A DNA stretch of 49,230 nt, from positions 1 through 49,230 of the IMG/VR virus record IMGVR_UViG_3300034418_011267; one strand, 5' to 3'. This DNA comes from a virus. The position numbers were made by a program, and so were the translations under genes. Positions 1 to 48,196 of this stretch are shown here, piece by piece. The first letter of the stretch is position 1; each line of letters opens with the position of its first letter. The notes below the pieces were generated by a model, which saw only the letters and a list, made by a program, of their open reading frames with translations, did not search any database and was not told the origin of the DNA.

Positions 1-410
1 CTGATCGTTTCATCAAGGAAGAAAGCGAATTTGATTACAATGCCTTTGAATCTCAGGTTCAATTTAAGATTCACACCGACAGACACTACATCCAAAACCT
101 GGAAGGAAGGGTTGCTTTCTTTGGTGCTGCTGCAAAAGGTTGTGTCTATCTCAATGCTCTTGGCTTGAACACCAACAACATGCCTGACACATACATTGTG
201 GATGACACGATTGCAAAACAGGGCTACTACGTTGGCGGCACGGGTTTCCAGATTAAAGATCGCTTGTACCTCTTTGATGATCAACCGGAGAACTTAATTA
301 TCTTGGCGCATAACTTCAAAGATTACATTACACAAACATTGCGCCCGCATTACAAGGGCCGTATTATTACAATGTTTCCAGACATTACCGTTGACGAGTA
401 TCAGCCATGA
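1..410 (+). CDS. C-methyltransferase, C-terminal part (cut by window start)
   Basis: The reading frame is open from base 3 and ends at 410. The visible 135 residues resemble the C-terminal Rossmann-like domain of sugar C-methyltransferases (Methyltransf_14 type). The pattern is FFGAAAKG, then a YIVDDTIAKQGYYVGGTGF segment, then LAHNFKD. In that family this domain follows a zinc-binding and a SAM-binding domain, which would lie left of the window. Proteins of this kind methylate nucleotide-linked deoxysugars. In a phage this suggests glycan modification or interference with host surface sugars (inference). The stop overlaps the next start (ATGA), so the two methyltransferases are probably co-translated. 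Confidence 0.8.
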   Translation, partial: DRFIKEESEFDYNAFESQVQFKIHTDRHYIQNLEGRVAFFGAAAKGCVYLNALGLNTNNMPDTYIVDDTIAKQGYYVGGTGFQIKDRLYLFDDQPENLIILAHNFKDYITQTLRPHYKGRIITMFPDITVDEYQP

Positions 411-1024
411 GCAGTGTTAGTTGGGAAAAACCTTCCAAGCCCCTCACCAAAATTATTGAAGAGTATAACGTCAATGGGTTTGAAGCTCCTGGTGGCACTG
501 ACAAGAACACCATCCACAACTACACCGGAATCTACGAGCACATCCTCTCGCCTTATGTGAAGCGGGAGGGTCAGCTCCTCGAGATTGGTGTGCAGCATGG
601 TGGCTCGTCACTGCTGTGGCAAAAGTACCTGCCCAAGTTCACGATCTGCATGGTTGATATCCATGACATTGTGAACCCACGGATCTGGGACTTGATGGAT
701 CAAAACAAAAACGATTACGCATTTTATGAAAACAATGCGTATGACAAAGGTTTTGTGAAGCAATTAGCTGAGGAGTGGGGCGATTTTGACGTCATTATTG
801 ACGATGGTCCTCACACGCTTCAAAGCCAGCTGTTTGCCGTGGAGCACTACCTGCCACTGCTTGCCAAGGGTGGTGTCTTTGCCATTGAGGACATCCAAGA
901 TATTCGTCACGTCACCGATCTAAAGAATGCAGTACCTGACGAATTAAAAGACAATGTCAAGGTCTATGACGTCCGCAATACCAAGGGACGTTATGATGAT
1001 GTCATCTTTACTGTTACTCGGTAA
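407..1024 (+). CDS. Class I SAM-dependent methyltransferase
   Basis: A 205-residue protein. LLEIGVQHGGSSLLW (about residues 57-71) is a glycine-rich SAM-binding motif I. MVDIHD follows at the end of strand 2, and DVIIDDGPHT gives the acidic post-strand motif of the Methyltransf_24/MycE-like group. KGGVFAIEDIQD fits the next conserved strand. Substrates in this group are sugars or small molecules. Pairing with the upstream C-methyltransferase suggests a shared glycan pathway (inference). The start overlaps the upstream stop by 4 nt. A terminator follows immediately. Confidence 0.8.
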   Translation: MSSVSWEKPSKPLTKIIEEYNVNGFEAPGGTDKNTIHNYTGIYEHILSPYVKREGQLLEIGVQHGGSSLLWQKYLPKFTICMVDIHDIVNPRIWDLMDQNKNDYAFYENNAYDKGFVKQLAEEWGDFDVIIDDGPHTLQSQLFAVEHYLPLLAKGGVFAIEDIQDIRHVTDLKNAVPDELKDNVKVYDVRNTKGRYDDVIFTVTR

Positions 1025-1025
1025 A

Positions 1026-1050
1026 CCCAACTTTGCAGTTGGGCTTTCCT
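1026..1050 (+). terminator. Intrinsic terminator after methyltransferase pair
   Basis: A perfect 7-bp stem (CCCAACT/AGTTGGG) with a TTGC loop starts two bases after the stop codon. It is followed by CTTTCCTACTTTT. Confidence 0.7.
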
Positions 1051-1150
1051 ACTTTTAACAAAAGGATAAGGGTGTGAAACTAAATGTGGTGTTCCATTTA
1101 ATGCCATGTTTGTTCTCACACCTATGATCCGTTCTCCCAAAGAATCCGAA

Positions 1151-1360
1151 ATGGCACTCTCCAGTCAGGTCAAGGAATCGGTTGATGCAGCAGCCAGTCA
1201 CCTGCGTCAGGCGCTAGCATTTGCCGCCCGCACCGAACATCCCGTCACCATCAGCAGCATCACTGATGTGCTGGTGCGACTGGAATCCCTGGAGCAAATG
1301 GACCAGATCATCGAGAAGTTTGGCAAGGGCAAAGACATTCCGACAACAGGATTGTTTTAA
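1151..1360 (+). CDS. Small conserved phage protein, unknown function
   Basis: A 69-residue protein if started at the ATG at 1151 (MALSSQVKESV). The frame is open from an ATG at 1106, but the downstream start gives a protein resembling short, mostly helical cyanophage proteins. Two amphipathic helices are visible (VDAAASHLRQALAFAA and ITDVLVRLESLEQMDQIIEKF). No catalytic motif is seen. The stop TAA overlaps the ATG of the next gene by one base, indicating translational coupling. Confidence 0.65.
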   Translation: MALSSQVKESVDAAASHLRQALAFAARTEHPVTISSITDVLVRLESLEQMDQIIEKFGKGKDIPTTGLF

Positions 1361-1575
1361 TGCCACGTATTACAAAAGCTCAACGCCTTCAAGATTACTT
1401 CTGGAAGCTTGAGAAATTAATTCCCAACCCCGGACCCAACTGGGCTCGGAGTGCAAAACCATGTAAGTACGCTAAAATCTTAGAAGAACGTAAGAGGTTA
1501 TTGGAACTTGGCAGAGAAGAAGAAGCCTGGTCTTTATGCAATAATGTGAGCAAGCCGCATACAGACCTTGTCTGA
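1360..1575 (+). CDS. Small basic protein, unknown function
   Basis: 71 residues, rich in Lys, Arg and Trp, starting at an ATG that overlaps the previous stop. I do not recognise a family. It is predicted helical (ILEERKRLLELGREEEAWSL). The 3' end overlaps the start of the HNH gene by 8 nt, so that gene may have inserted at or near this boundary. Confidence 0.55.
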   Translation: MPRITKAQRLQDYFWKLEKLIPNPGPNWARSAKPCKYAKILEERKRLLELGREEEAWSLCNNVSKPHTDLV

Positions 1576-2134
1576 GCCCCTTCGCTCTAAATACGCTAAC
1601 TCCACAAAGCGAGCTTTTTATTTTCCAGATACCAACGAAAAAATCTGTGCTAAATGCAGCGTAAAAACTAGCATAGAAAATTTCTTTAAACACCGTCAAA
1701 CACAAGATGGTTACCACTCTTGGTGTAAATCTTGCTGCAAAAAAGGAAGCGAAAAATCTAAAGCAAAAAAGTATAGTACATTCGAAGGAAGAGTAACAAC
1801 TTTTTTAAGAACTTGCAAAAACAGTGCAGAAAAAAGACAACATTCTTTTGAATTAACAAAAGAAATGTTATTAGAAATGTGGGAATTGCAACATGGTATT
1901 TGTGCATACACAGGAATTCAAATGACTACTCAACCAAGTAGTGCCTACAGTGTTTCAGTTGAACGTATTGATAGCTCAAAAGGCTACACAAAAGACAACA
2001 CCGTTTTGGTTTGTAATGCAATTAACAAAATGAAAACAAACCTAGATCCTGTTTTGTTTTTTGAAATGTGTTCAGCTGTAACAAAATTTTTAGGAGATAA
2101 AGATGGTAATCTAAATGTAGAGTTTGTAAAATAA
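1568..2134 (+). CDS. HNH homing-type endonuclease with zinc ribbon
   Basis: 188 residues. An N-terminal zinc ribbon is formed by C27/C30 and C53/C56. The C-terminal half has an HNH-like core: ICAYTGIQM, then VSVERIDSSKGYTKDNTVL, then NAINKMK. Free-standing nucleases of this type cut DNA and drive their own spread. The only available start before the zinc ribbon is TTG at 1568, overlapping the previous gene. The body is clearly more AT-rich than the flanking genes, consistent with transfer. Confidence 0.75.
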   Translation: MSEPLRSKYANSTKRAFYFPDTNEKICAKCSVKTSIENFFKHRQTQDGYHSWCKSCCKKGSEKSKAKKYSTFEGRVTTFLRTCKNSAEKRQHSFELTKEMLLEMWELQHGICAYTGIQMTTQPSSAYSVSVERIDSSKGYTKDNTVLVCNAINKMKTNLDPVLFFEMCSAVTKFLGDKDGNLNVEFVK

Positions 2135-2308
2135 ATGCCACAGAAGAAACCCGGTGATCCCGGCTTGTATGATGCGATTCGAAAAAAGCGTGAGCGGATT
2201 GCTGCTGGCAGTGGAGAAAAGATGAGGAAGCCTGGCGAGAAGGGTGCACCTACCGCCAAAGATTTTAAGGAGTCTGCAAAGACAGCAAAGAAACCAAAGA
2301 AGAAGTGA
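2135..2308 (+). CDS. Small Lys-rich basic protein (57 aa)
   Basis: It starts directly after the HNH stop (TAA, then ATG). The sequence is strongly basic, with a PGDPGLYDAIRKKRERIAAG N-terminus and a poly-Lys C-terminus. It resembles a very short basic protein seen in many cyanophages (recall); function is unknown. A DNA- or RNA-binding role is possible from its charge only. A structured region and terminator follow. Confidence 0.65.
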   Translation: MPQKKPGDPGLYDAIRKKRERIAAGSGEKMRKPGEKGAPTAKDFKESAKTAKKPKKK

Positions 2309-2401
2309 TATTGTATTCCAGAGCACTAAAGCTCCAGGGAAATAGTCGAACTCCCTGACACTTCGTTTATTGAAGTGCTTGCGTCAGCGGTAAGGAAGAG
2401 A

Positions 2402-2430
2402 GATCCCGGCGTGAGAAACCGGGATTTTTT
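2402..2430 (+). terminator. Intrinsic terminator
   Basis: ATCCCGG pairs with CCGGGAT across a short loop, followed by a run of T residues ending at 2430. It probably ends the transcript of the gene at 2135-2308 or separates it from the tRNA region. Confidence 0.75.
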
Positions 2431-2774
2431 ATGTATGATATTATCGATAGAGGTCAGGTCCCTGCCTGGATACGCCTGGTTAACTCACAGCCCGATTGTC
2501 GGTACGCCAGTTACACCTGATCCATCCCACCCCTACTGCTCTGTCGGTAGGGTGCAGCCAACAGGAATGGGCACTGCGTCGATTCTGGATCGGAAATTTT
2601 CGATCGTTGTTGGTTTGCGTTTGAAGTCCTGGGTTTCCAGGCCAGGAGATTGATCACTCCTGCCCGATTGATTCACGGGTGCGCCGGGGACCGATTCGGC
2701 AAGCGCAACGGATCAGTAACACCCCCTATGCTTAGCTCCGGGACGCCGGATGATGCACAAACCTGGGGGTCACT

Positions 2775-2844
2775 GGGTTGAAAGCCAAAGGGAAAGGCAC
2801 GTGGACAACACATTCAGTAGCTGGTTCGAGTCCAGCTCAACCCC
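2775..2844 (+). ncRNA. tRNA-like element, anticodon arm degenerate
   Basis: A 70-base unit with a perfect 7-bp acceptor stem (GGGTTGA/TCAACCC), a GCC/GGC D-arm with a GG-containing loop, and a perfect T-arm (GCTGG-TTCGAGT-CCAGC). The anticodon arm does not fold into a 5-bp stem with a 7-base loop and has no U33. It is therefore either a decayed tRNA gene or a tRNA mimic. No CCA is encoded. Confidence 0.45.
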
Positions 2845-2948
2845 TGGGTGCAACAAGGAACGTTGCATTAAACGAAGGATCCCCTAAGCCACATCGTAGA
2901 CACACCGGCATTGTTATGGTGAACGTAGGTGGATATCCTCGCCCACTT

Positions 2949-3050
2949 CACCCAATGCGAGCCAATTGGATAGGACGGCCACCAGCCTGGGTACTGGACG
3001 CAGTACTTTCAGTGGATATGGCGATGGGGGTTCGAATCCTCCTTGGGTGT
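2949..3050 (+). ncRNA. tRNA-like element with enlarged centre
   Basis: Acceptor CACCCAA/TTGGGTG (7 bp) and a T-arm with TTCGAAT loop and GGGGG/CCTCC stem enclose about 70 bases instead of about 45. The middle holds a perfect GTACTG-GACG-CAGTAC hairpin nested in CCAC/GTGG, and no standard anticodon arm. It could be a tRNA with an inserted stem or a decayed tRNA. Confidence 0.4.
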
Positions 3051-3067
3051 TTTATACTGAACATGTT

Positions 3068-3141
3068 CCAGATGTAGCGCAGCTTGGTAGCGCAGGTGTT
3101 TTGGGTACATCAGGCCGCAGGTTCAAATCCTGCCATCTGGA
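3068..3141 (+). tRNA. trnP: tRNA-Pro (anticodon UGG)
   Basis: A complete cloverleaf: acceptor CCAGATG/CATCTGG, D-arm GCGC/GCGC, anticodon stem GGTGT/ACATC with loop TTTGGGT (UGG), and T-arm GCAGG-TTCAAAT-CCTGC. The discriminator is A and CCA is not encoded. It would read CCA and other proline codons. Confidence 0.93.
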
Positions 3142-3144
3142 CTT

Positions 3145-3216
3145 GCTGGATTAGCTCAGTGGCAGAGCAGGGATTTTGTAAATCTCAGGCCAACAGTTCA
3201 AATCTGTTATCCAGCT
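3145..3216 (+). tRNA. trnT: tRNA-Thr (anticodon UGU)
   Basis: A complete cloverleaf three bases after tRNA-Pro: acceptor GCTGGAT/ATCCAGC, D-arm GCTC/GAGC, anticodon stem GGGAT/ATCTC with loop TTTGTAA (UGU), and T-arm ACAG-TTCAAAT-CTGT. The discriminator is T and no CCA is encoded. It is probably cotranscribed with tRNA-Pro. Confidence 0.93.
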
Positions 3217-3222
3217 TTTGAT

Positions 3223-3408
3223 ATGTGGAGACTCTGGGCTAAAGCGCTGGGCGAGAAAAGCTCACCTCACGACAAAGAAGCAGATGTTATTGCCTGGATC
3301 CGCACATTAATATTCATTAGTTATTTAGTTACAAACATGTTTATAATTTCAGGAGTTATAAGACATTGGTCTGATAGTGAGTGCCAAGACCAAACGCATC
3401 AGAACTAA
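3223..3408 (+). CDS. Small single-pass membrane protein
   Basis: 61 residues starting a few bases after tRNA-Thr. A cytoplasmic-looking N-terminus (MWRLWAKALGEK) precedes one hydrophobic segment, about residues 27-46 (TLIFISYLVTNMFIISGVI), followed by RHW. The pattern matches a small protein common in cyanophages (recall); its role is unknown. The last 32 bases overlap the HNH frame, so the original C-terminus may have been altered by that insertion. Confidence 0.65.
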   Translation: MWRLWAKALGEKSSPHDKEADVIAWIRTLIFISYLVTNMFIISGVIRHWSDSECQDQTHQN

Positions 3409-3664
3409 CCGTCAGAAGTTTCTGGAATATAAACAGACTCTGCAATGCCAACATTGTGGCATAGGCGATCATCGGGTCCTTGAGTTCCATCACCTTGGAG
3501 ATAAGGACCACAACATTTCAAATATGGTGAGTCAAGGATACGCCTGGCGGCGCATCCAAAGTGAAATAGAAAAGTGTATTCCGTTGTGCTGTAATTGCCA
3601 TAGGCTTGAGCATTATGTCAAGCCACCACAGAATTCAATTACTTTCTTTTACCATCATTCTTAG
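3377..3664 (+). CDS. Small HNH endonuclease
   Basis: 95 residues from a GTG start. It has the order CQHCG, then VLEFHHLGDKDHNIS, then CIPLCCNCHRLEHY, a compact HNH with zinc-binding cysteines. It overlaps the membrane-protein gene upstream. Its 3' end runs through a duplicated copy of the 37-codon gene tail found at 4317-4370, so the end of the protein is a composite. Confidence 0.75.
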   Translation: MSAKTKRIRTNRQKFLEYKQTLQCQHCGIGDHRVLEFHHLGDKDHNISNMVSQGYAWRRIQSEIEKCIPLCCNCHRLEHYVKPPQNSITFFYHHS

Positions 3665-3703
3665 TTTTACTTGCAACAGCATTACCACAGGCTTGAGCAT
3701 TGG
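3638..3703 (-). pseudogene. Remnant copy of the 37-aa basic gene
   Basis: On the - strand this segment closely matches the 3' two thirds of the gene at 4318-4431. In that frame it reads NAQACGNAVASKTKN-DGKRK then stop, against NAKQNCGNAVARKAKN-GGKRK then stop in the intact copy. No start codon in the proper frame remains. The two copies are direct repeats flanking the 201-residue gene. Confidence 0.6.
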
Positions 3704-3712
3704 AGAGATTAA

Positions 3713-4318
3713 CTATCTAGAGGGTATTCCTAATGCGTATTGAGGTAGTCCAGTTTTTGGCATGCCCTTAGGAAAAATATAAGTCACCGTGCCAGGTGTT
3801 ATGTTTTTTCCCAGGTGTGATCTGTTTAAAATGTCTGTTGCAGCCGCATTACTTTTTTTATCTTTTAACCAATCTTGTAAAGCGCCGTACATAGGTTGTT
3901 GTATTTCACGTTTAATTTCTTCGTGAGTTACATTGGGCCGCAATAGATTATCTTTTTTAGCTTCCTGCATTATTTGATTAAACAAACCCATATGCTTGCC
4001 TGCCAATGCGGGGTTTACACCTTCGGCCAAACCTCCAAACTGATTTATTGCTTGTTCAGCAAGACCTGGATTTTCTAATAGTAGTTTGCCCATTGGGCTT
4101 CGTAATGTATTACGAATAGCACTTCGAGTAAAGTCAGGACTTTGTCCAACTTGTCCAAGGTAATATAAACCTTCCTGAAATACATTAGGTGTGATGTTTT
4201 TTCTAACAGCTTCTTGCGTAAAACGGTCAATAATTTGACGTGCTTGACCACGACTCATGGCAATGTCGCCATAATCAACGGGCAAGTTCTGTAAAGAAGA
4301 AGAATCAAAAAATTCCAT
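3713..4318 (-). CDS. Unknown 201-aa protein
   Basis: It starts at an ATG overlapping the stop of the 37-residue gene (TAATG). The protein is soluble-looking, mostly helical, Gln/Asn-rich, with no motif I recognise. It is flanked by two copies of the basic-gene tail, so it may have been brought in as a unit. It looks AT-rich and could be a virion or accessory protein; nothing in the sequence decides this. Confidence 0.6.
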   Translation of the reverse strand: MEFFDSSSLQNLPVDYGDIAMSRGQARQIIDRFTQEAVRKNITPNVFQEGLYYLGQVGQSPDFTRSAIRNTLRSPMGKLLLENPGLAEQAINQFGGLAEGVNPALAGKHMGLFNQIMQEAKKDNLLRPNVTHEEIKREIQQPMYGALQDWLKDKKSNAAATDILNRSHLGKNITPGTVTYIFPKGMPKTGLPQYALGIPSR

Positions 4319-4431
4319 TACTTTCTTTTACCACCATTCTTAGCTTTACGTGCAACAGCATTGCCGCAGTTTTGCTTGGCATTTTGTTTTGCCGTTGCAC
4401 CTTTCTTCTTTTTGTTCTTAGATTTAGACAT
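4318..4431 (-). CDS. Small basic protein (37 aa)
   Basis: A Lys/Asn-rich peptide (MSKSKNKKKKGATAKQNAKQ at the start) ending in GGKRK. The stop overlaps the next start by one base. An intergenic TAAAAT-type motif lies just upstream (4450-4460). A degraded second copy is present at 3638-3703, which supports this being a real gene that has been duplicated. Confidence 0.55.
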   Translation of the reverse strand: MSKSKNKKKKGATAKQNAKQNCGNAVARKAKNGGKRK

Positions 4432-4449
4432 TAGTTGTTCACACTTCCT

Positions 4450-4462
4450 TACATTTTACTCT
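4450..4462 (-). promoter_or_regulatory. Candidate TAAAAT-type promoter
   Basis: On the - strand the order is TTGACAGAGTAAAATGTAAG, about 20 bases upstream of the gene at 4431. It matches the TAAAATWAA motif found upstream of the structural genes on the + strand. Confidence 0.4.
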
Positions 4463-4506
4463 GTCAAGTATTTTCATGATATGATTTCATAGTTCATATT
4501 TGAATT

Positions 4507-5001
4507 ATGAATACAAAACAATGCACAATGTGCAAAGAAGAAAAATTGTTAGTTGATTTTTACAATGAGTCAAGGGTTAAAGATGGGAAGCAAGCAAGAT
4601 GCAAAGCATGTCACAAATTAATCACAGACTCATACCGTAAAAATAATTTAGAACTCTACGCAAACGCCAGTAAAAAATACTGGAGCAAATTATCAGACAA
4701 AGCAAAACATTCTAAATGGCTTGAACGTTATGGATTAACAGCGGAACAATACACTGAATTACATACAGCACAAAATGGTTGTTGCGCTATTTGCAATCGA
4801 CAATGTATTTCAGGACAAAATTTATCAGTTGACCATTGCCATAAAACAAATAAAGTCAGGGGGTTGTTATGTAAAAAATGCAACACCGCTTTGGGCATGC
4901 TTGAAGATAACATTGATTATCTTCAAGCAGCCATTGATTACCTAAGAGTTTCTAAGGGTGGCTTTGATGAACCATGCGGCTTTAAAAGCCGCACCACATA
5001 A
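4507..5001 (+). CDS. Endonuclease VII-like HNH nuclease
   Basis: 164 residues. An N-terminal zinc ribbon (C6/C9, C32/C35) is followed by the recombination endonuclease VII core: YGLTAEQYTELHTAQNGCC, then CAIC, then VDHCHKTNKVRGLLC, then KKCNTALGML. Catalytic-site D109, H110 and H112 are present. In phages such genes either resolve branched DNA or act as free-standing homing nucleases. Five HNH-type genes in the window favour the second. The last 60 bases overlap the convergent Dps-like gene. Confidence 0.85.
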   Translation: MNTKQCTMCKEEKLLVDFYNESRVKDGKQARCKACHKLITDSYRKNNLELYANASKKYWSKLSDKAKHSKWLERYGLTAEQYTELHTAQNGCCAICNRQCISGQNLSVDHCHKTNKVRGLLCKKCNTALGMLEDNIDYLQAAIDYLRVSKGGFDEPCGFKSRTT

Positions 5002-5487
5002 ATCTGCCATGTAATTTTGAATATCAATTGCACCAATTTTTGCTGCAATCGGCTCTAGTTTTTTGGTTTTCATGCCAAGCTCTTCAAGATTTTTATAATA
5101 CACAGCAAGCATGTCTGTGTTCTTGTAACTATTAACACGTTGAATGCCTGGTGAAGCATCTGCTAAACCGCATCCACACATTGGCATCAGATAGTCCATA
5201 CTTCTGATAAACTCAGCAAGCTTGTCAAACTGTTCAAGATGTGCTTGGTACTGGTCTCCAAGGAACCCATGGAGACCAATAAAGTTTGGACCTTCAATAT
5301 TGAGATGGATAAGGTGACTTTGTGTCTCAAGTTCCTTGATGTAAGCGCAGAGGGAGATGCACTGCTGAATGAAGGACCCGACATCACCATTCTTTGATTT
5401 ACCAGGAGCCTTAGGTTTTGCCTGGGGCTCCATGGGAGGTGCTTCTGGAGCAGGGGGTTGCATCTGTTGAGGCGCAGGAGTATACAT
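4942..5487 (-). CDS. Dps-like ferritin (DNA-protection protein)
   Basis: 181 residues. After a Pro-rich N-terminal tail (residues 1-35) comes a ferritin-like four-helix domain. HLNIEGPNFIGLH and then EQFDKLAE carry the Dps ferroxidase ligands at H61, H73, D88 and E92, with the same 12/15/4 spacing as in E. coli Dps. The C-terminal helix (MADLCGAAFKAAWFIKATLR) fits the last Dps helix. Known family members form 12-mers that oxidise and store iron and protect DNA from peroxide. The protein could protect phage or host DNA during infection, or be a virion component (inference). Confidence 0.75.
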   Translation of the reverse strand: MYTPAPQQMQPPAPEAPPMEPQAKPKAPGKSKNGDVGSFIQQCISLCAYIKELETQSHLIHLNIEGPNFIGLHGFLGDQYQAHLEQFDKLAEFIRSMDYLMPMCGCGLADASPGIQRVNSYKNTDMLAVYYKNLEELGMKTKKLEPIAAKIGAIDIQNYMADLCGAAFKAAWFIKATLRNS

Positions 5488-5535
5488 AATTTTTTGTCAG
5501 TAATTCCAGTTTATCAAAGAAGTATTGCAATTAAA

Positions 5536-6849
5536 TCAACGGCTAATTTCCTGCCAGTTGACAGCTGCATGCAGCGTGGATGTATTGGTGCTTGCAGAAG
5601 CAACCAATGACAGTTCGTAAGGTGTGTTTGTTAACCCATTGCGTTCCAGCTGGAAAGTAAAAAGGGCTTCCTTCAGGATGTCAACAGCAGAAGTGGATTG
5701 ATTGCTGGCAGAAAAGTAGCCTTGCGCAAGGACAGATCCACCAGATGTTGATGTACCACTGATGTTGTATTCAACGCCAGAGTTTGCGCCTGCACTTTGC
5801 CAAGACCCACCAGATGTTGTGGCGCTACTAAGGATTTGCCATACGTAGTTTGCAGTTCCACCTGCAGCCATCAATGAAATGGCATTAAGGATAACAATGG
5901 CATCAAGTTCAGACGCTTTAAGTCGCAAGGAAACAATTGGATAGAATGTCCCAGCTGTCGCCATGTTGTAGGGTGATGTGATTGCGGTACCAATGCCTTG
6001 GGGTTTACCACGCAATTCATATCCACCCTCCGAAATAACAGTGGAACAAATTTGTTTTAATGTACTGCTGCTTGCAGCAGCAGATGTATTAACAATTTCA
6101 TAACGTAAAGGAAGAGAAGCTGTGGTGATATAAGTTGAATCAATTAAGTTGGCATGATTAAACGAATGGCAGTGCACAAACTTACCATTGATTACAAACC
6201 CAGTCCTTACGGTACCAAGACCCAGCCATTCAATATCCATCCACATGATCTGAGCTTTTGCCAGATCTAGTGTCAACCTGGAACGACCAGTACCATCCAA
6301 CTTGTCTGCATTCCACTGGGACTGAGGAACCCGAGTTTCTGACAACGTGCCTGACACGGAACTACGCTCAACAAATGCAGGGGCAGCTACACCGCTTACT
6401 TCTAAATAGATGCCGTTGTTTGCACCGTAGTAACCAACACGTTGACGCAGCCCAGCCTTTTGTGCATTCATTACAAAGGTTGAAAGCACGAGTAGTGATT
6501 TGCCTGGTTGATAAGAGAAAACTTTTGTTGTTTCTCTAACAACTTCAGAACCAGATGCTGTTGTTACGTTGAGTGTAACAAGGCCTGCATTGGCATCAAA
6601 GACTGCATTACCACCGGTTCCACTAGATGTAGCCCACAGTCCATTGTCGCGATAACGATGGCTGGAGTCAAACAGCGTAAGAGGTGTACTGGCACGGAAA
6701 CGCCCAAATGCATCGGAGCTTGTGCCCCCCGCCTGGATGTAGACAACCTCACCTGTTGTGGTTGCAATCTCTAACGGTTGACCACTGCAAGTTTTAACTT
6801 TAACTACGTCATATAAAGTTGATTCACCTGATTCTCTATAAACTGGCAT
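5536..6849 (-). CDS. Phage virion protein, fibre/tail type
   Basis: 437 residues, Ser/Thr/Gly-rich and beta-rich. The stretch SDAFGRFRASTPLTLFDSSH, followed by RYRDNGLW and VRETTKVFSYQPGKS, matches a structural protein widespread in cyanophages (recall). No catalytic motif or coiled coil is seen. It lies in a leftward block with Dps and small genes, away from the main structural cluster. A tail or surface decoration role is the best guess. Confidence 0.75.
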   Translation of the reverse strand: MPVYRESGESTLYDVVKVKTCSGQPLEIATTTGEVVYIQAGGTSSDAFGRFRASTPLTLFDSSHRYRDNGLWATSSGTGGNAVFDANAGLVTLNVTTASGSEVVRETTKVFSYQPGKSLLVLSTFVMNAQKAGLRQRVGYYGANNGIYLEVSGVAAPAFVERSSVSGTLSETRVPQSQWNADKLDGTGRSRLTLDLAKAQIMWMDIEWLGLGTVRTGFVINGKFVHCHSFNHANLIDSTYITTASLPLRYEIVNTSAAASSSTLKQICSTVISEGGYELRGKPQGIGTAITSPYNMATAGTFYPIVSLRLKASELDAIVILNAISLMAAGGTANYVWQILSSATTSGGSWQSAGANSGVEYNISGTSTSGGSVLAQGYFSASNQSTSAVDILKEALFTFQLERNGLTNTPYELSLVASASTNTSTLHAAVNWQEISR

Positions 6850-6873
6850 GATACTGCTACATTTTCTACCATT

Positions 6874-7110
6874 CTATTTCGTGTCACTTTTGTTGTTTTT
6901 GATTTGTTCATGTTGCCAGTCGGCTCGCAAATAACCGTAGTCCCGTGGCTCAGTAACCGCTACATTTTTTGTGCCGCACACCCCACAAGTACCAAGGTGC
7001 ATAGTTGAGCAGAGATCAGGCGGCCCAATGTACACACCTTTTTTGTACCAGGAACCATAAGCCATTCCGCAGCTGTGGCACACCCAATCTGGGTATTTAG
7101 TTTTTGGCAT
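6874..7110 (-). CDS. Small zinc-ribbon protein
   Basis: 78 residues. C11/C14 (WVCHSCG) and C42/C45 (TCGVCG) form a rubredoxin-like or zinc-ribbon pair, with an extra Cys at 34. The C-terminal tail is charged. It overlaps the upstream gene by 14 nt. The function is unknown; zinc ribbons of this size are often nucleic-acid or protein binding. Confidence 0.65.
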   Translation of the reverse strand: MPKTKYPDWVCHSCGMAYGSWYKKGVYIGPPDLCSTMHLGTCGVCGTKNVAVTEPRDYGYLRADWQHEQIKNNKSDTK

Positions 7111-7486
7111 TGCTCTGGATTAGATCAGCGAGTTCTTTGGCGTTGTCGTATTCTTTCTTAACAAAATCTAAAGCTTGCAATGCGGCAACTGTGAATGCTT
7201 CATAGATTTCAGCACCAGTCAATTCATTTTGGAACTCAGCAATTGTATCTGCAAAGTACTCAGCTGCTTTTTGTTTGTATATATTGTTACCTTCATAGGG
7301 TTTATCCCAGAAGGATTTCCAATCTGGCACTGCATAAACAGATGACACAGCATTAGTGCTGTCGTGCATCTTCTCGCGTGAATCTTTTGTTACCAATGGT
7401 TCATCAAATTCTGCAACAATTTGATGAGTGCGATACCAAATTTGCCAATCTTTGATGGCATCAAGAGGTTCGTGTGGATGGTCCAT
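7097..7486 (-). CDS. Unknown 129-aa protein
   Basis: An acidic, mostly helical protein without a recognisable motif. Aromatic-rich N-terminal region (IKDWQIWYRTH) and a long helix (AEIYEAFTVAALQALDFVK). It is translationally coupled to the downstream zinc-ribbon gene by a 14-nt overlap. Confidence 0.6.
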   Translation of the reverse strand: MDHPHEPLDAIKDWQIWYRTHQIVAEFDEPLVTKDSREKMHDSTNAVSSVYAVPDWKSFWDKPYEGNNIYKQKAAEYFADTIAEFQNELTGAEIYEAFTVAALQALDFVKKEYDNAKELADLIQSNAKN

Positions 7487-7546
7487 AAGAGGAAGGGACG
7501 TTCCACTATCGTGGCCCGCCCCAAAGCAAAGTGTGTTAATTAAATC

Positions 7547-7840
7547 TTAAACAGGTTGGAACCTGCCTTCCTCGTAGAGGCGGACAGCTTCCATCATTTC
7601 AAAGTACCGATCACGCATTGCAGGGCCAGCTTCGCGGACGCAGAAGTCTTGCCAAAGCCCAGTGTAGCGGGAATGCATGGGATGACGTTTGTCTTGCCGT
7701 CCAGAGCATTGATACATGTGTTCCATGAAGTCAGCCGTGCGTTGTTCTGCTAGCACGCTCCAGGCCAGGAGCTGCTCTTTAAGCCACGGCGTATCGAAGG
7801 CGCCTGCGGTGTTGAGCTTTTTGGCAAGGTCATCAGTCAT
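7547..7840 (-). CDS. Unknown 97-aa protein
   Basis: The start is taken at the ATG at 7840 (MTDDLAKKLNTAGAFDTPWL), which overlaps the stop of the upstream gene by 8 nt. The frame is open further upstream to 7993, but that part reads as low-complexity Ser/Pro antisense to the upstream gene. The protein is helical with conserved-looking WLKEQLLAW. Function unknown. Confidence 0.6.
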   Translation of the reverse strand: MTDDLAKKLNTAGAFDTPWLKEQLLAWSVLAEQRTADFMEHMYQCSGRQDKRHPMHSRYTGLWQDFCVREAGPAMRDRYFEMMEAVRLYEEGRFQPV

Positions 7841-8030
7841 TGGATTCGATGCCGGTGATGGAGACGTAGACACGCTTGACGGAAGAGCTGGCTTCGTAGA
7901 GGAGGGTTTCAATTTCATCTGCGAGGGCGACAGCAAGGTCGGATGAGCTGCGACCCGAGAAAGAATCGTACTCAACATCAAGGTCAATTGCAAACGAAAC
8001 TGTAAGCTCTGGTACGGTAATTGGTTCCAT
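7833..8030 (-). CDS. Unknown 65-aa acidic protein
   Basis: Starts MEPITVPELTVSFAIDLDVE with alternating beta-type hydrophobics, then a helix (SDLAVALADEIETLLYEA) and a final strand (VKRVYVSITGI). This small alpha/beta fold is not identified. It is coupled to the following gene by an 8-nt overlap. Confidence 0.6.
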   Translation of the reverse strand: MEPITVPELTVSFAIDLDVEYDSFSGRSSSDLAVALADEIETLLYEASSSVKRVYVSITGIESND

Positions 8031-8068
8031 TTCTAGGAATAAAGACTTTATTACCCTAGCAGAAATTA

Positions 8069-8386
8069 TTAAATCAGCTTTGTGTATTTACCTGCTAATG
8101 CGTTTTCAAATATTGTTTGCGGAAAATTTGAAATGGCTGGAAGAATATTTCCTATATTGTTCATTGTGATTGGATTACTTGCATTACCCAAAGAATATTG
8201 GCTTGAGTCTTCAAAATAATTTTTCCATGGGTTAATAGGCCTGCGCGTTTCTACACCATTAACAATATTTCGAAAGTTAAGTAAATTTTTAGAAGCAGTG
8301 CTGTAATCTAATGCACCCCTACCATCAAACAAACCTGTGCCTAAATAATTCCATACAGTGTTTGCATTGTAGTTGTTTATTGCCAT
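8069..8386 (-). CDS. Unknown 105-aa protein
   Basis: Asn-rich protein (MAINNYNANTVWNYLGTGLF) without a known motif. The start ATG overlaps the upstream stop by one base. It is possibly a virion-associated protein by composition; this is weak. Confidence 0.5.
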   Translation of the reverse strand: MAINNYNANTVWNYLGTGLFDGRGALDYSTASKNLLNFRNIVNGVETRRPINPWKNYFEDSSQYSLGNASNPITMNNIGNILPAISNFPQTIFENALAGKYTKLI

Positions 8387-8649
8387 TAGTTATTGAGCAG
8401 GCGTTCCAACGAATGAGCTTGATGCTCTTGGTAATAACCAAGTCGTTTTTGAATCAGGTTGTAGTAATTGATAGCAGCATCAACCATTTCTTCTGCATCC
8501 ATTGAGGATGCAAGGTTTTCATTGGCAAGCATGGCTGCTGTCAGGATGACAACACCATGTTCCATCTTGGAACCAATTGTTGCCGAAAGAGGAGTTCCAT
8601 CCTGGGTAAACCCAGCAATAAGTTTGTTTAAAACTGGATCACCGCCCAT
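8386..8649 (-). CDS. Unknown 87-aa protein
   Basis: Starts MGGDPVLNKLIAGFTQDGTP and continues as two helices (ILTAAMLANENLASSM and AINYYNLIQKRLGYYQEH). It resembles a small cyanophage protein of unknown function (recall). It heads the leftward block 4.9-8.6 kb, and its start faces the divergent kinase-like gene across 62 bases. Confidence 0.55.
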   Translation of the reverse strand: MGGDPVLNKLIAGFTQDGTPLSATIGSKMEHGVVILTAAMLANENLASSMDAEEMVDAAINYYNLIQKRLGYYQEHQAHSLERLLNN

Positions 8650-8684
8650 GGAACTCCTGTGACTTCCTTTAGTCTAGTATGTTT

Positions 8685-8697
8685 GATTTAAAATAAG
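8685..8697 (+). promoter_or_regulatory. Candidate TAAAAT-type promoter for the kinase-like gene
   Basis: GATTTAAAATAAG lies 15-27 bases upstream of the ATG at 8712 in the divergent intergenic region. It has the same core (TTAAAATA) as sites upstream of several structural genes. Confidence 0.4.
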
Positions 8698-8711
8698 AAA
8701 TAAAACAAGGT

Positions 8712-9542
8712 ATGTTTAAAGCAATTGCAAATGTATTGGCCGCAAAGCGTTCGGTACAGCAAGGTGTTTCTCCTGAAGAAGTTCGATTATACGCAGCGCG
8801 TGCGGCACAACGCGCACGTGTTGGAAAAGGACAATTTGGCCAAGTGTACGAAGCAGCTCCTGGCGCAGTAGTTAAAGAAATTGACATGGAACGTAAACGA
8901 CAGTTGTTAAGTGAAATTAATACGCAAGCAAAAGCGGCAGAATTAGGAATTGCTCCTTCAGTTAAAGAAGTTTATTTAGGGCCTATTGAAGCATTTGGAA
9001 AAACATTTCCAATTGAACCAGGGGTTAATCCTAAAATAAGAGGTGAAATTACAATGCAGGATTTACGAAAAAATTATGTGCCTCTTTCATTAGCCAATGA
9101 TTTAAGCGGCGTTAAAAATCCTGCTTTAACACAGCAGCAGTATGATCGTGCAAATTTAATCACAGAACAACAACTTGCACAATTAGCACTAAATAAAATT
9201 AGCCTTGGAGATCGCCATGGGCAAAATGTATTTGTTAACACTTTAACTGGCAGACCAGTTCAAATTGATTTTGGTAGTGCACAAACTATTTCTAACGTAA
9301 GGCAACAAGCTGCAAAAATTGCTAATTCTGTTAGTTCAGGTTTAAATTATGCAAATCTCCCAGAAGAAGCATCTATTTTTAAGGGTTTGTTTAATGAATT
9401 AATACAAACAGATCCAATGGCTGCTTTAGATATTGCAAAGCAAGGTTTATCTCGTTTACAAAAAATTAAAGCACCTATTAATCGCGACCAATATAAATAT
9501 GCAACTGTAACAAACGCAGAAGATTTTATCCCTACATATTAA
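8712..9542 (+). CDS. Protein-kinase-fold protein
   Basis: 276 residues with a complete set of kinase landmarks. There is a glycine-rich loop VGKGQFGQVYEAAPG (about 37-51) followed by VVKEI with K55. The catalytic loop is SLGDRHGQNVFV, with D167 and N172. The metal-binding motif is IDFGSA with D186. The family uses ATP to phosphorylate Ser/Thr in proteins or, in relatives, small molecules. Spacing between K55 and D167 is short, so the N-lobe/C-lobe join is compact. An AAGG lies just before the ATG. It is a lone + strand gene between leftward blocks, with no partner nearby to indicate its target. Confidence 0.7.
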   Translation: MFKAIANVLAAKRSVQQGVSPEEVRLYAARAAQRARVGKGQFGQVYEAAPGAVVKEIDMERKRQLLSEINTQAKAAELGIAPSVKEVYLGPIEAFGKTFPIEPGVNPKIRGEITMQDLRKNYVPLSLANDLSGVKNPALTQQQYDRANLITEQQLAQLALNKISLGDRHGQNVFVNTLTGRPVQIDFGSAQTISNVRQQAAKIANSVSSGLNYANLPEEASIFKGLFNELIQTDPMAALDIAKQGLSRLQKIKAPINRDQYKYATVTNAEDFIPTY

Positions 9543-9566
9543 AAACCCCGGCGTAAACCGGGGGTA
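9541..9566 (-). terminator. Terminator ending the leftward module
   Basis: CCCCGG (9546-9551) pairs with CCGGGG (9558-9563). Read on the - strand the stem is followed by TTTTT. It ends leftward transcription from the 9.6-31.4 kb module and overlaps the stop codon of the convergent kinase-like gene. Confidence 0.7.
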
Positions 9567-9597
9567 ATAAATTTACTTTTCCCGTAGGTTAATAAGT

Positions 9598-9825
9598 TTA
9601 TTTACCAGACTTTTCTGCTTTGGCTAACCAGTACCAGTAGCACCGTGCTGCGTTTTGGTGAAAGCGTTTACCAAGCAGAAGCTTAAGTTTCTTTTGCTCA
9701 AGGTCATCCATCTTATCGGTGTGATAAGGGAGAGGCTCTTCACCTTCACACAGCATTTGCATCTCAAGGTCATTCATCTCCAGCTGAAGATTAAAATCAT
9801 CAACACTATGGTTGTGACAAGACAT
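9598..9825 (-). CDS. Unknown 75-aa protein
   Basis: The start is set at the ATG at 9825, 22 bases after the Gp157-like gene ends. The frame is open far upstream, but that part is a shadow of the Gp157-like gene. An ATG at 9900 is an alternative. The protein is His/Gln-rich with acidic MNDLEMQMLCEGEE and a basic C-terminus. Function unknown. Confidence 0.5.
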   Translation of the reverse strand: MSCHNHSVDDFNLQLEMNDLEMQMLCEGEEPLPYHTDKMDDLEQKKLKLLLGKRFHQNAARCYWYWLAKAEKSGK

Positions 9826-9847
9826 CTTGATGTGTGCGTCTTCTAAA

Positions 9848-10558
9848 TCAGTCGGTGGTTCCAGCTTCTGATAGAAGTTCTCCTGGATATTCGGATGCAT
9901 CCATTTCCACCCGTGTGGAGAAGAGTCGCTTTGTGCGGACGGAATATTCTTGGGCAACTTTGACTCCTTGGGGTAACTGTTGACCTGTTTGATAGGCGTT
10001 GCGGATGGCATCGAGGTTGGGGAGGATTTCAGTTTTTGTTTTAGGTTCTGTCCTGTCGGAGAGGACTTCTCCTGACATTGAACGTACCACGACTTGTTTG
10101 GTTGTGGTTGTTTCCTGTTGGATACAGAATTGTTGTTGTTCTTTAGGGTCCCAAAGGTTAGGGTCCGACGTGATTTCAACACTCATCTCTTTTTTCTTGA
10201 CCAGCGTGAACTGATAGTTCCGCCCTGTTATTTTATTACAGTCCAGCGGTAGTGAGCGACGCAGCCAGCTCAGCAAACTTTTGAGCGACCGGATCTGGGA
10301 TTCGTGGTGCCGCTTGGCATCAGAGATGAGATCGGATTCTTTTTTGATGCGTTCAAGAGCATCCTCATGGGACGCCAGAGCGTAATGAATACGGTCGATT
10401 TTTTCTGAACGGAGGGTGGCACAGGCCTCCAGCTCAGCTTTTGCCAGGTCTTGGGACTCAGGAGTAAGGAGAGGAAGAGAGCGTTCCAGGGCACCATAGT
10501 GCTCGTAGAGCTGAAGGATGTTGAGATCTTTTAGTTTAGTTGCAGTGATTTGAGTCAT
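9848..10558 (-). CDS. Gp157-like protein
   Basis: 236 residues from the ATG at 10558. The long helical N-terminal half is followed by YQFTLVKKKEMSVEITSDP and LDAIRNAYQTGQQLPQGVKV, the pattern of Siphovirus Gp157 proteins (PF05565 type: beta hairpin, then a helix ending in 'GxxxPxG' and an Ile/Val strand). The family is linked to early phage takeover and, in some annotations, host-nuclease inhibition. It overlaps the HicA-like gene by 23 nt. Confidence 0.7.
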   Translation of the reverse strand: MTQITATKLKDLNILQLYEHYGALERSLPLLTPESQDLAKAELEACATLRSEKIDRIHYALASHEDALERIKKESDLISDAKRHHESQIRSLKSLLSWLRRSLPLDCNKITGRNYQFTLVKKKEMSVEITSDPNLWDPKEQQQFCIQQETTTTKQVVVRSMSGEVLSDRTEPKTKTEILPNLDAIRNAYQTGQQLPQGVKVAQEYSVRTKRLFSTRVEMDASEYPGELLSEAGTTD

Positions 10559-10745
10559 TGTTGGAAAGGATTTGTTTGATGTCTGATTCCACATTCTTCA
10601 GTGCTCGGCCATCACTACAGGTGAATGAAGTGACAAGCATCTTGCCTGAAGTGTGTTTGAAAACCAAATGTTTGTTGCGCCGTACTAATTTGAAACCATA
10701 AGACTCAGCAAGTTTGACAATACGTCTGGCTGTATCAGATGGCAT
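10536..10745 (-). CDS. HicA-like (dsRBD-fold) protein
   Basis: 69 residues. RRIVKLAESYGFKLVRRNKH then LVFKHTSGKMLVTS follows the HicA/YcfA layout of helix, two strands and a 'H-x-x-(F/Y)-x-H' region. In toxin-antitoxin pairs HicA is an mRNA interferase neutralised by HicB. No HicB is visible next to it; the neighbours are Gp157-like and a 40-residue membrane peptide. It may be a phage RNA-binding protein rather than a toxin. Confidence 0.6.
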   Translation of the reverse strand: MPSDTARRIVKLAESYGFKLVRRNKHLVFKHTSGKMLVTSFTCSDGRALKNVESDIKQILSNNDSNHCN

Positions 10746-10857
10746 GGTTGAAATGAGTTTGAAGTTTATTAATGCAATAGGTCAGCAGCATACCTGCTGC
10801 TGCCCAAAGAAGATTTTTAAAGACTGGAACAACGGCGCCAAAGATGGATTCAAACAT
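10735..10857 (-). CDS. Small membrane peptide (40 aa)
   Basis: It starts MFESIFGAVVPVF and has one hydrophobic segment (LLWAAAGMLLTYCI). The stop lies inside the start region of the HicA-like gene (11-nt overlap). The leader reads TTAACTCAACTC just before ATG and carries one of the module's conserved hairpins (10879-10903), which supports it as a real gene. Function unknown. Confidence 0.55.
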   Translation of the reverse strand: MFESIFGAVVPVFKNLLWAAAGMLLTYCINKLQTHFNHAI

Positions 10858-10878
10858 GAGTTGAGTTAATGATGTGGA

Positions 10879-10903
10879 CTGGTCAGTTTAAGGTCATGAC
10901 CAG
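10879..10903 (-). promoter_or_regulatory. Conserved leader hairpin 1 (TGACCTTAAAC loop)
   Basis: On the - strand CTGGTCA pairs perfectly with TGACCAG around loop TGACCTTAAAC, in the leader of the 40-residue membrane-peptide gene. It belongs to a family with the same loop and different stem sequences. Confidence 0.7.
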
Positions 10904-10924
10904 GACCATGAATACAATTAGTTT

Positions 10925-11293
10925 TTAAGAAATTTTTTCTATTGTATCAGTTAAGTTAGCTATATATTTAGCCAATTCTTTAACATTGGCATTAACTGAT
11001 TTAATTTCTTCCATCATTTCTTCCCTAGATGGCGACCCATAGATAAACAGATCTTCTTGATATTTGCTAACAATTTCTGGATTATTTTGTTTCTGGTACT
11101 GACGGCAATCCTCATTGCTTGCGTATATAGAGTCGTTGTACAACTCTATTAATGTGCGGTAATCAATGTTGCCAACGCCTTCGCTAGACGCAATGTTGTT
11201 CAACTTTAAATAAAGCTGACAAGCAAACCGTGCATTATCTTCAAAAAACTCAGTGTACTGTTCTTCTGAAAGCTGGTAGGTGTCAATTGTCAT
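10925..11293 (-). CDS. Unknown 122-aa protein
   Basis: Acidic, Asn- and Tyr-rich, with a C-terminal helix (IKSVNANVKELAKYIANL) that could form a short coiled coil. The start overlaps the upstream stop by 11 nt. AT-rich relative to neighbours. No family recognised. Confidence 0.55.
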   Translation of the reverse strand: MTIDTYQLSEEQYTEFFEDNARFACQLYLKLNNIASSEGVGNIDYRTLIELYNDSIYASNEDCRQYQKQNNPEIVSKYQEDLFIYGSPSREEMMEEIKSVNANVKELAKYIANLTDTIEKIS

Positions 11294-11504
11294 TGGTTGA
11301 AAGAACGTGGTTGCAAGCGTGGTTTAATGCCTTAAGGACAAATTGTTTTTGTCCTTCTTCACCCCATGAATTCCATAGGGCAAGATCTGGATCTGTTTCA
11401 TCCCATTCGATGTGGATGTAACAGCTGCCGTCAGGATTGTCCTCCATTACTTGAAGATTTAGTTTGTCGATCCAATTGGTTAATGATGGATTGTTTGTAG
11501 TCAT
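11283..11504 (-). CDS. Unknown 73-aa protein
   Basis: The start is set at the ATG at 11504 (MTTNNPSLTNWIDKLN); upstream codons shadow the neighbouring gene. The core CYIHIEWDETDPDLALWNSW followed by a helix resembles a small acidic protein of cyanophages (recall). Function unknown. Confidence 0.55.
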   Translation of the reverse strand: MTTNNPSLTNWIDKLNLQVMEDNPDGSCYIHIEWDETDPDLALWNSWGEEGQKQFVLKALNHACNHVLSTNDN

Positions 11505-11727
11505 TGTTGATTTTTTGAGTGGCTTTAATAGCAAATTCTTGAAGTACACGTTCAGCGTACTCTTCGTGATGCAGCTTTTGGTTGGCACCTAATGCCACAA
11601 GTTTCCAGTGAAATTCTTCTGGAACTTCTAAGTCATATCGAATAAGTTTAGTTTTGGACTGAGCTGTGGACATAGGTTTTTTAAGTAATTGTTTGGCGTA
11701 CTCAAGTGTTTCTTGAGTAGTTGTCAT
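11431..11727 (-). CDS. Unknown 98-aa protein
   Basis: LIRYDLEVPEEFHWKLVALG followed by HHEEYAERVLQEFAIKA gives a helix-turn-helix-like arrangement, possibly ribbon-helix-helix related, but not firmly. The start overlaps the SWIM-protein stop (ATGA) and the 3' end overlaps the next gene by 74 nt. Confidence 0.5.
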   Translation of the reverse strand: MTTTQETLEYAKQLLKKPMSTAQSKTKLIRYDLEVPEEFHWKLVALGANQKLHHEEYAERVLQEFAIKATQKINNDYKQSIINQLDRQTKSSSNGGQS

Positions 11728-12662
11728 TGTTTTTTAAGTGCAGGTTTGAGTTGAGGCAGTGCGGTACCAGGGAATGGAACGTAGCCAGCCTCAAGCATAT
11801 TAAAGAACAAATCCCATGCGTCATGTTGCGTTAGAACTTCTTTAGATTTGTAAGTACGCCAGTGACTTAGCGGAGCTTGAGCACCCTGTTTGGTATGCAG
11901 TAATACAAAACGCCCGTGACTAAGGTGGTCAGCAGGTGGAGCATAGAACCAAGCCACGCATTTATCCGGTGCACCAGAGGGTGCTGCATTGCGCACTTCC
12001 GTGCGTTTGCACAGAAGCTCACGATATTTATTAAACCAGGTCAGGTGGATACACCACGGTTTATATCCCTGGATTTCTTCTTGGAGAGTTTGTATAGCAC
12101 CGAGTTGACGTTGAAATGACCCGCACGAGCAGTAAGGTTCGCCAAACACCGGCTTTTGTTCTTGGCTGTCATCCAGTGAAGAGTCCATATCAATCGGCCG
12201 ATTCGGAAGCCGCATCCCGTCCGGTGCAACCAGATGGCCCAGGTCTGCTTGGTCAGACTGTAATAGTGTGACAACTTTCTGAGGATCTGAGAGGTGAATG
12301 AATTTATCCGCCCAGTGGCCCTGGAGCTTGGCGTTAGGAGTTGTGTGTCCAAGTGCATGAACATAGTTCCATCCCTTGAAAAGAACGTAGGCATTGTCGT
12401 GCCAGATGCTAGGACCCCTGTAGTTTGGACCTAGATAAGCAAAGAAGTCCTTAAGGCGATGTGTATAAGATACATAAGCATTTCTTATCAGTTGCCTGTT
12501 GTAAGTCTGCTCAGTACCATCGCGGCGCACCACGAGACAATCATCATCTCGCACAAAAATCCCAGCGATTTCGGTGTCATCAAACGCCTCGTCTACACGA
12601 CGGATGTTGCTGCGGTTGTAAATCAATGCTTGCTCTGATGAGAGCTGAAGCGTAAGTTCCAT
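11724..12662 (-). CDS. SWIM zinc-finger-like protein
   Basis: 312 residues. PYCSCGSFQ followed some 25 residues later by PWCIHLTWF gives the CxC...CxH signature of a SWIM zinc finger, a DNA- or protein-binding module. No nuclease or helicase motif is visible in the rest of the protein. The leader before ATG is CAACTCAACTCAACACATC with no Shine-Dalgarno site. The role is unknown, perhaps in early transcription or replication. Confidence 0.6.
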   Translation of the reverse strand: MELTLQLSSEQALIYNRSNIRRVDEAFDDTEIAGIFVRDDDCLVVRRDGTEQTYNRQLIRNAYVSYTHRLKDFFAYLGPNYRGPSIWHDNAYVLFKGWNYVHALGHTTPNAKLQGHWADKFIHLSDPQKVVTLLQSDQADLGHLVAPDGMRLPNRPIDMDSSLDDSQEQKPVFGEPYCSCGSFQRQLGAIQTLQEEIQGYKPWCIHLTWFNKYRELLCKRTEVRNAAPSGAPDKCVAWFYAPPADHLSHGRFVLLHTKQGAQAPLSHWRTYKSKEVLTQHDAWDLFFNMLEAGYVPFPGTALPQLKPALKKQ

Positions 12663-47618: not shown

Positions 47619-48196
47619 TAGTTCAGATCCTGGTAGGTATGACCTTTCAAGATTTGGTAAATAGCTCCGTGATTGCAATCAAACTTTTCGGCAATCTTTC
47701 GATACGACAGACCAGCCTCTTTTAAAGCTTTGATTTGAATCACGTCATCCGAAGAAAACTTCCTTAAAGACTTCTTCGGTTTTCCTTTACTGGCAAAACC
47801 ATTGTTCTTGTAACAACCCGTTGCCCAGGCCCTTGTTAAATTTTCTTGTTTGGTAACGATCTCAAGATTTTCAAGTCGATTATTTCTCTTGTCATTATCT
47901 TTGTGATCAACTTGCAGGGAAAAGTTACTGGTTCCATGAGAACGCAGATCTAATCCCAAAAAAGCAACAGCCATCAAGACATGAAGATGAAAACGTTTTC
48001 TCTTTCCATTAACAAGAACTGAAATACGGTCATAAACACTGGTGGAACGAATAAGGATCTCTTGAAAATATTCTTGATTATCGGGATCAAGTCGTTTTTC
48101 AAAAGCTTTTCCCTCTTCCGTTAAGTAAAGATTACCAAATCCAGGAACAAGCTTTGGTTCCATGTTGTTCATAAACAAGTTTCCAAAGCATAACAT
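47618..48196 (-). CDS. HNH endonuclease antisense to the capsid intron
   Basis: 192 residues. HNH_3-type core (LQVDHKDNDKRNNRLENLEI) plus C-terminal helix-turn-helix (YRKIAEKFDCNHGAIYQILK), as in I-HmuI-like homing nucleases. It is encoded on the strand opposite to the capsid gene, between the likely exon 1 and the recognised intron core. Downstream starts at MNNMEPK are possible. Antisense placement is unusual for an intron-borne homing gene. Confidence 0.75.
   Translation of the reverse strand: MLCFGNLFMNNMEPKLVPGFGNLYLTEEGKAFEKRLDPDNQEYFQEILIRSTSVYDRISVLVNGKRKRFHLHVLMAVAFLGLDLRSHGTSNFSLQVDHKDNDKRNNRLENLEIVTKQENLTRAWATGCYKNNGFASKGKPKKSLRKFSSDDVIQIKALKEAGLSYRKIAEKFDCNHGAIYQILKGHTYQDLN

Follow-up and report, generated by a model that had tools for sequence, protein, structure and literature searches.

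AbiF has been described as a single-strand RNase held in check by the RNA AbiFr (PMC12737573, a review), and the AbiD/F proteins are kin to the HEPN domains of Cas13 (PMC12165695). In C. difficile, AbiF is bound and neutralised, in cis as well as in trans, by RCd22, an RNA that contains the abiF motif twice; neutralisation was lost when the RCd22 stem was destabilised and kept when bases were swapped with their pairing preserved (PMC12373285). An abiF sRNA in the cyanophage S-CREM1 was reported as conserved and probably functional (PMC9964418), and an RNA of phage PhiTE mimics the type III antitoxin of the ToxIN system (PMC3475682). The phages T5 and T6 carry tRNAs that evade tRNA-cutting defences (PMC13096335, PMC11555353).

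The locus considered here resembles each of these systems in part. It belongs to an IMG/VR virus record of 49,230 bases, taken to be a cyanophage, analysed at its full length and called the window below; all window features named here are on the + strand. The abiF RNA found in it (RF03085) has in common with AbiFr and RCd22 a CCCC.../...GGGG stem, an inner AGC/GCT (or TGC/GCA) pairing and a CAAA bulge, and its 22-nt core is identical in many phages. Unlike the described family, which precedes abiF, the phage copies come without a toxin gene and are joined to a tRNA or to a tRNA-like unit. Pseudo-ToxI of PhiTE is likewise a non-coding RNA by which a phage mimics a type III antitoxin, but it concerns another toxin family and consists of tandem repeats, whereas the copy described here is single and placed in a tRNA array (PMC3475682). 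With the tRNAs of T5 and T6 the locus shares a tRNA cluster, a possible decoy role and a nearby endonuclease gene; its two tRNA-like units, TL1 and TL2, in contrast cannot decode as ordinary tRNAs (PMC13096335, PMC11555353). In the literature covered, which was mostly outside subscription journals, no description of a fusion between abiF RNA and phage tRNAs was found, nor any of the TL1, TL2, M1 or M5 families.

The array and its borders

Positions 2446-3050 of the window hold conserved structured RNAs packed into a compact array, in the order M1, M2, M3/M4, abiF RNA, TL1, M5 and TL2 and followed by tRNA-Pro (TGG; 3068-3142) and tRNA-Thr (TGT; 3145-3216), the normal tRNAs that the first-pass annotation had placed right after a hairpin-rich stretch at 2309-3060. 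That stretch had been credited with at least eight perfect stems in about 750 bases. Exactly eight non-overlapping perfect hairpins (stem of at least 6, loop of 3-12) are present, starting at 2335, 2359, 2403, 2531, 2627, 2819, 2849 and 2991, a number reached in none of 300 dinucleotide shuffles (mean 1.44, maximum 5) and in none of the 59 other 752-nt segments of the contig. On either strand the whole region folds with an energy that is only moderately low (z -2.6 and -2.7), and the case for structured RNAs therefore rests on comparison.

At the left border, a perfect 7-bp hairpin (2403-2425) followed by TTTTTT forms a terminator-like structure of the upstream gene (2403-2431), and a similar hairpin occupies the equivalent place in the Synechococcus phage S-EIV1. 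Since this is a terminator ahead of the array, 2309-2445, comprising the terminator and the bases before it, probably lies outside. With that exception, the hairpin count, the two tRNA-like units and the tRNAs that follow bear out the original observation. The array is apparently read from its own promoter, just past the terminator: a promoter-like site, GTGAGA-17-TATGAT (2411-2439), has 9 of 12 consensus matches and a predicted start at about 2446, the number of such sites in the array region being near chance expectation. Megablast of window positions 1-12000 against phages gave no match. M1, M5, TL1 and TL2 matched no Rfam family here, and other Rfam matches near the array (YrlA, Plastid-ycf2, GlsR5, anti-hemB) scored far below cut-off.

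tRNA-like units and neighbouring modules

TL1 (2775-2844) comprises a 7-nt acceptor, which in most relatives has six pairs and one mismatch, together with a D-arm, a T-arm and, between them, a 3-bp hairpin with the loop GACAA. This mini anticodon arm, GTG-GACAA-CAC, stands where a standard tRNA has an anticodon stem of five pairs and a loop of 7 nt. Across 30 distinct sequences of the family 95.4% of cells pair, and both sides have changed in 13 of 18 pairs. Because pairing of the hairpin had been a selection rule for this set, the family was retested with D-arm and T-arm anchors only, and the 3-bp hairpin was found in 31 of 33 sequences, with ten stem types and the loops GACAA (27), GATAA (3) and AACAA (1). 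A GACAA hairpin was found in one of the 411 ordinary tRNAs of the same loci. The model R1 was built from an alignment that left out the window, loci L120, L026 and L069, and five overlapping or off-type candidates (two from L042, two from L050, one from L072); it scored TL1 of the window at 53.5 bits (E 1.7e-12). When 96 sources were searched with R1, 45 matches reached at least 46 bits, many of them training members, and all others stayed at or below 43.4 bits.

TL2 (2949-3050) carries in the anticodon-arm place a long arm, not a 5-pair stem with a 7-nt loop, and the inserted stem GTACTG-GACG-CAGTAC, seen already at first pass, is present within it at 2991-3006. In 16 distinct long copies 99.2% of cells are paired, with both sides changed in 16 of 25 pairs. 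Selection of these copies relied on the acceptor and the T-arm, the outer pairs of the inserted hairpin not being among the rules; the hairpin around GACG is paired in all 16 copies, and 4 of its 6 pairs have changed on both sides. TL2 keeps the special loop TGGACGCA, and 19 distinct copies represent a shorter form (74-79 nt) whose hairpins resemble CTGCCGCTGCAG. Both units have the paired acceptor stem and T-arm attributed to them by the first-pass annotation, which had described a standard anticodon arm as lacking; an arm does occupy that place, with a different conserved loop.

Neither unit was called by ARAGORN, and the covariance-model check proposed for the region left both unreported by the Rfam tRNA model even at E<=10. 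Borderline scores with the Rfam tRNA model were obtained for some relatives of TL1 (29.6 and 28.8 bits), and 36 relatives were called tRNAs by ARAGORN. By BLAST, TL1 was found in S-PM2, S-CREM1, S-RIM32, S-RIM8, S-SZBM1 and DSL-LC03, with no annotated feature under it in any of the 10 records matched; it is also present, unannotated, in S-EIV1. S-EIV1 is the only isolate with similar DNA over TL2 among the matches listed. Its order is a terminator-like hairpin, TATGATATT...GATAGAGG, an abiF-like element, TL1 and TL2; none of these array elements is annotated as RNA, and a hypothetical protein overlaps the end of TL2.

M1 (2446-2526) is closed by TCAGG/CCTGA between AGAGG and TCCATC. Among 39 distinct copies, found by flanking anchors without any pairing rule, 38 have 5 of 5 pairs in this helix, with 12 pair types. 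By eye, many copies begin a few bases past a TATAAT-like hexamer, at the distance seen in the window, and some right after a terminator-like hairpin, an arrangement that suggests M1 as the start of a transcript. Elsewhere M1 is located inside a tRNA array. A ToxI-like pseudoknot was also considered for M1, in which AGAGG/CCTCT would form a hairpin with its loop paired further downstream; it was rejected, since in many copies (TCCCT) the first stem is disrupted and the closing helix stays intact. M2 (2530-2552) is a hairpin with the conserved loop TGCTCTGTCG; in a search with its short anchor, 7 of 21 distinct matches pair at 5 of 5 positions, with paired changes around the fixed loop, and the other 14 look like chance. 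M3/M4 (about 2610-2712), a hairpin at 2627-2647 together with a GTGCGCC...GGCAAGCGC element, recurs by BLAST in about 7-14 of 122 loci. M5 (2845-2948) is a structured RNA with four helices, two of them long-range; in 19 sequences 99.4% of cells pair and both sides have changed in 7 of 19 pairs, and the window, which belongs to the training set, scores 99.7 bits with the M5 model. M5 is also found in S-CREM1 and DSL-LC03, and gave no match in plasmids.

Genes around the array include an Endonuclease_7 ORF identified by Pfam (4507-5001), an HNH-like ORF recognised by eye (3377-3664) and an endonuclease-like ORF (1568-2134), the last two without a Pfam match. An ORF like that at 3377-3664 lies just past the array of S-EIV1. 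These endonuclease-like ORFs are comparable to SegB, placed beside the T6 tRNA region (PMC13096335). A group I intron (87.8 bits) was found at 48191-48432.

Other elements were observed in phage tRNA arrays. In S-CREM1, a manA RNA (RF01745, typed as cis-regulatory) lies between tRNA-Leu and tRNA-Asn (L244, 1748-1962); with no protein gene immediately downstream, it is a candidate for a trans-acting role. An element GGGGTTCGGCTCTACCCC...AACAAAAGGGCCGCC, with no Rfam match reported, recurs in the tRNA arrays of S-SZBM1, S-RIM8 and DSL-LC03 (L248 1280-1320, L249 1460-1500, L247 1605-1645), and another, TTGCCGTGGTTCAGAT...CACGGCA or CATGGCA, recurs in S-RIM32 and S-RIM8 (L246 1570-1655, L249 1570-1655).

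abiF RNA in phages and in bacteria

The key fact absent from the first-pass annotation is that the element adjoining TL1, at 2720-2774, is an abiF antitoxin RNA, of the family that restrains the type III toxin AbiF, here an orphan with an enlarged apical hairpin. It has an outer stem CCCCC/GGGGG, an inner TGC/GCA and a bulge CAAAC, in agreement with the structure of the family. Its score of 23.8 bits is below the RF03085 cut-off of 37 because the apical loop is enlarged by a hairpin, a difference from the family that is common to many other phage copies, about half of the distinct ones compared, and it was identified through its relatives. The nearest of these are in L004 and L005, where the element before TL1 scores 55.3 and 52.2 bits and the layout by pattern scan is nearly like that of the window, L005 being without the modules before abiF. 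A match of the scan in L003, with no tRNA present and no similar layout, was rejected as chance. L004 and L005 also have an extra structured-looking stretch between TL1 and M5 (about 1710-2210 and about 4440-4940, in reverse-complement coordinates) and a small ORF (MYKIERLTHEKLQPWLDK...) between M5 and TL2.

Scanning with a pattern drawn from the conserved 3' half found phage abiF loci in at least 119 contigs; among the matches listed, 122 regions gave 98 distinct loci, 95 of them long enough to test. The inner AGC/GCT-type pair is standard in 43 of 53 regex matches (A-T 23, T-A 18, G-T 2). Among 49 phage records searched whole, the RF03085 cut-off was passed in 23 and E<=0.001 was reached in 32; 26 had no match above the cut-off. 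A tRNA or tRNA-like unit starts 0 (57 loci), 1 (9) or 3 (1) nt past the abiF motif in 67 of the 95 phage loci among the matches listed, and the control with random positions gave such abutment in 164 of 4900. The remaining 28 of the 95 copies, again among the matches listed, have no tRNA-like unit by the abutment rule, and several clearly have none; L004 and L005 are counted here, yet TL1 was found in them by model R1. The motif in S-CREM1 is the same (10531-10567), 4 nt before a tRNA-Gly that begins at 10572. The accessible text of the S-CREM1 report presents it as an sRNA only and mentions neither the tRNA fusion nor the adjoining TL1 and M5 (PMC9964418). In L016, L018 and L096, abiF is followed by tRNA-like units of 88-89 nt whose variable region holds a second hairpin resembling a T-arm.

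The 22-nt core of the phage copies was also found in at least 120 bacterial loci, mostly of Bacteroidota, with a search pattern that, being derived from phage copies, favours like sequences. Among the matches listed, an AbiF ORF lies within 500 nt downstream in 66 of the 109 loci that have at least 300 nt of downstream sequence, and none was found with five query proteins in the other 43; a tRNA within 60 nt of the core was found in none of the 120. On sequence comparison, the context of abiF is reversed between the two groups, phage copies abutting a tRNA or tRNA-like unit and bacterial copies preceding an AbiF gene. In a check confined to plasmids of cyanobacteria, AbiF with an abiF-like RNA upstream was found in pAQ3 of Picosynechococcus PCC 7002 and in pSYLB of Synechocystis PCC 6714. 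Both RNAs are below the cut-off (27.2 and 29.7 bits), and they end in GGCGGGTTACT, like the phage ends GGGGTYACT.

Possible function of the array

The reading preferred here, with a probability of roughly 0.6, is that of a phage RNA operon in which the abiF RNA, trimmed by tRNA processing, neutralises host AbiF-type HEPN toxins, TL1 and TL2 being processing tags and perhaps decoys. Transcription would run from about 2446 through M1, M2-M4, abiF, TL1, M5 and TL2 into tRNA-Pro and tRNA-Thr, and the tRNAs and tRNA-like units would serve as cutting marks. An RNase P cut, assumed at the 5' end of TL1, would create the 3' end of the abiF RNA with no spacer, and tRNA 3' processing would free M5. Since abiF exactly abuts tRNA and tRNA-like starts, cutting by RNase P is the simplest route to its release, and this would account for units that retain acceptor and T-arm but no longer decode. 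Like the antitoxin RNA of cells, the freed abiF RNA would bind and silence AbiF-type HEPN ribonucleases of a putative AbiF-bearing host, and infection would then set off no abortive growth arrest; holding down these RNases is its most likely role. TL1 and TL2 may also act as decoys for tRNA-cutting toxins, an idea suggested by the replacement of their anticodon arm by a conserved non-decoding hairpin; the tRNA mimic acting on host tRNA enzymes or anticodon nucleases, one of the possibilities named at first pass, is in this way part of the preferred reading. The RNAs of the array probably help the virus to disarm host self-sacrifice defences.

It seems unlikely that the hairpins and tRNA-like units do no more than help the real phage tRNAs to mature, as leaders, insulators and RNase P/Z marks, with the likeness to abiF serving the transcript and not toxin binding. 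Acceptor and T-arm are the parts used by tRNA end-processing, and their retention in TL1 and TL2 fits such a task, as does the exact placement of abiF at tRNA starts. A leader would not, however, be expected to share a 22-nt core with an RNA preceding bacterial AbiF genes, and the special loops of TL1 and TL2 are unneeded for processing.

The phage RNA might instead restrain a toxin encoded by the same phage, AbiF-like but diverged and therefore missed by PF07751; the C. difficile AbiF system sits in a prophage (PMC12373285). This is quite improbable, given that Abi_2 was found in none of 49 phage records (the window and 48 others), so that none shows the toxin gene of a type III locus, that tblastn with five AbiF proteins detected no AbiF in the phage loci covered, and that the phage copies are located in tRNA arrays.

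About 600 nt of dense structure adjoining tRNAs in a phage could also form one large ornate RNA of the GOLLD/ROOL type, and a single large non-coding RNA had been among the initial suggestions. Such a molecule is very hard to reconcile with the distribution of the modules, which recur singly and in other orders: BLAST coverage breaks at module borders, and their subsets and orders vary by locus. M5 is not tied to abiF; in 57 new loci selected by M5, 34 of them with nearly the full 3-kb surround, a tRNA lies within 1 kb in 45, abiF in 4 and TL1 in 7. This variety, and M5 without fixed partners, indicates that the modules travel as cassettes in tRNA arrays and are not one fixed gene. Rfam, which presumably holds the GOLLD and ROOL families, gave no match of that type at E<=10 in 2250-3250.

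A decayed tRNA array, also among the initial suggestions, is refuted by covariation. ARAGORN and the Rfam tRNA model call neither unit, but in TL1 (30 distinct sequences) as in TL2 (16) the acceptor, the T-arm and the special hairpins are maintained by paired changes across many phages, and so are the helices of M5 in 19 sequences.

Beyond the presumed neutralisation of host AbiF by a tRNA-released phage RNA, it may tentatively be proposed, though with more doubt than confidence, that the tRNA clusters of cyanophages work as combinatorial islands of RNA counter-defence. They would hold at least five structured RNA families (abiF, M1, M5, TL1, TL2 and likely M2-M4); every family would imitate its own host RNA antitoxin or toxin target, and the families would be reshuffled as cassettes and set free by the tRNAs that punctuate the array.

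Four structured RNA families (M1, M5, TL1 and TL2), unreported by Rfam here, are added by this locus and its relatives. Most annotations skip them, and TL1 was missed even in the model phage S-PM2. If the proposed function is true, it would name both a defence (AbiF, a relative of the Cas13 ancestor) and the phage answer to it, testable in the cultured isolates S-EIV1 and S-CREM1, and it would give some cyanophage tRNA clusters a reason beyond codon supply.
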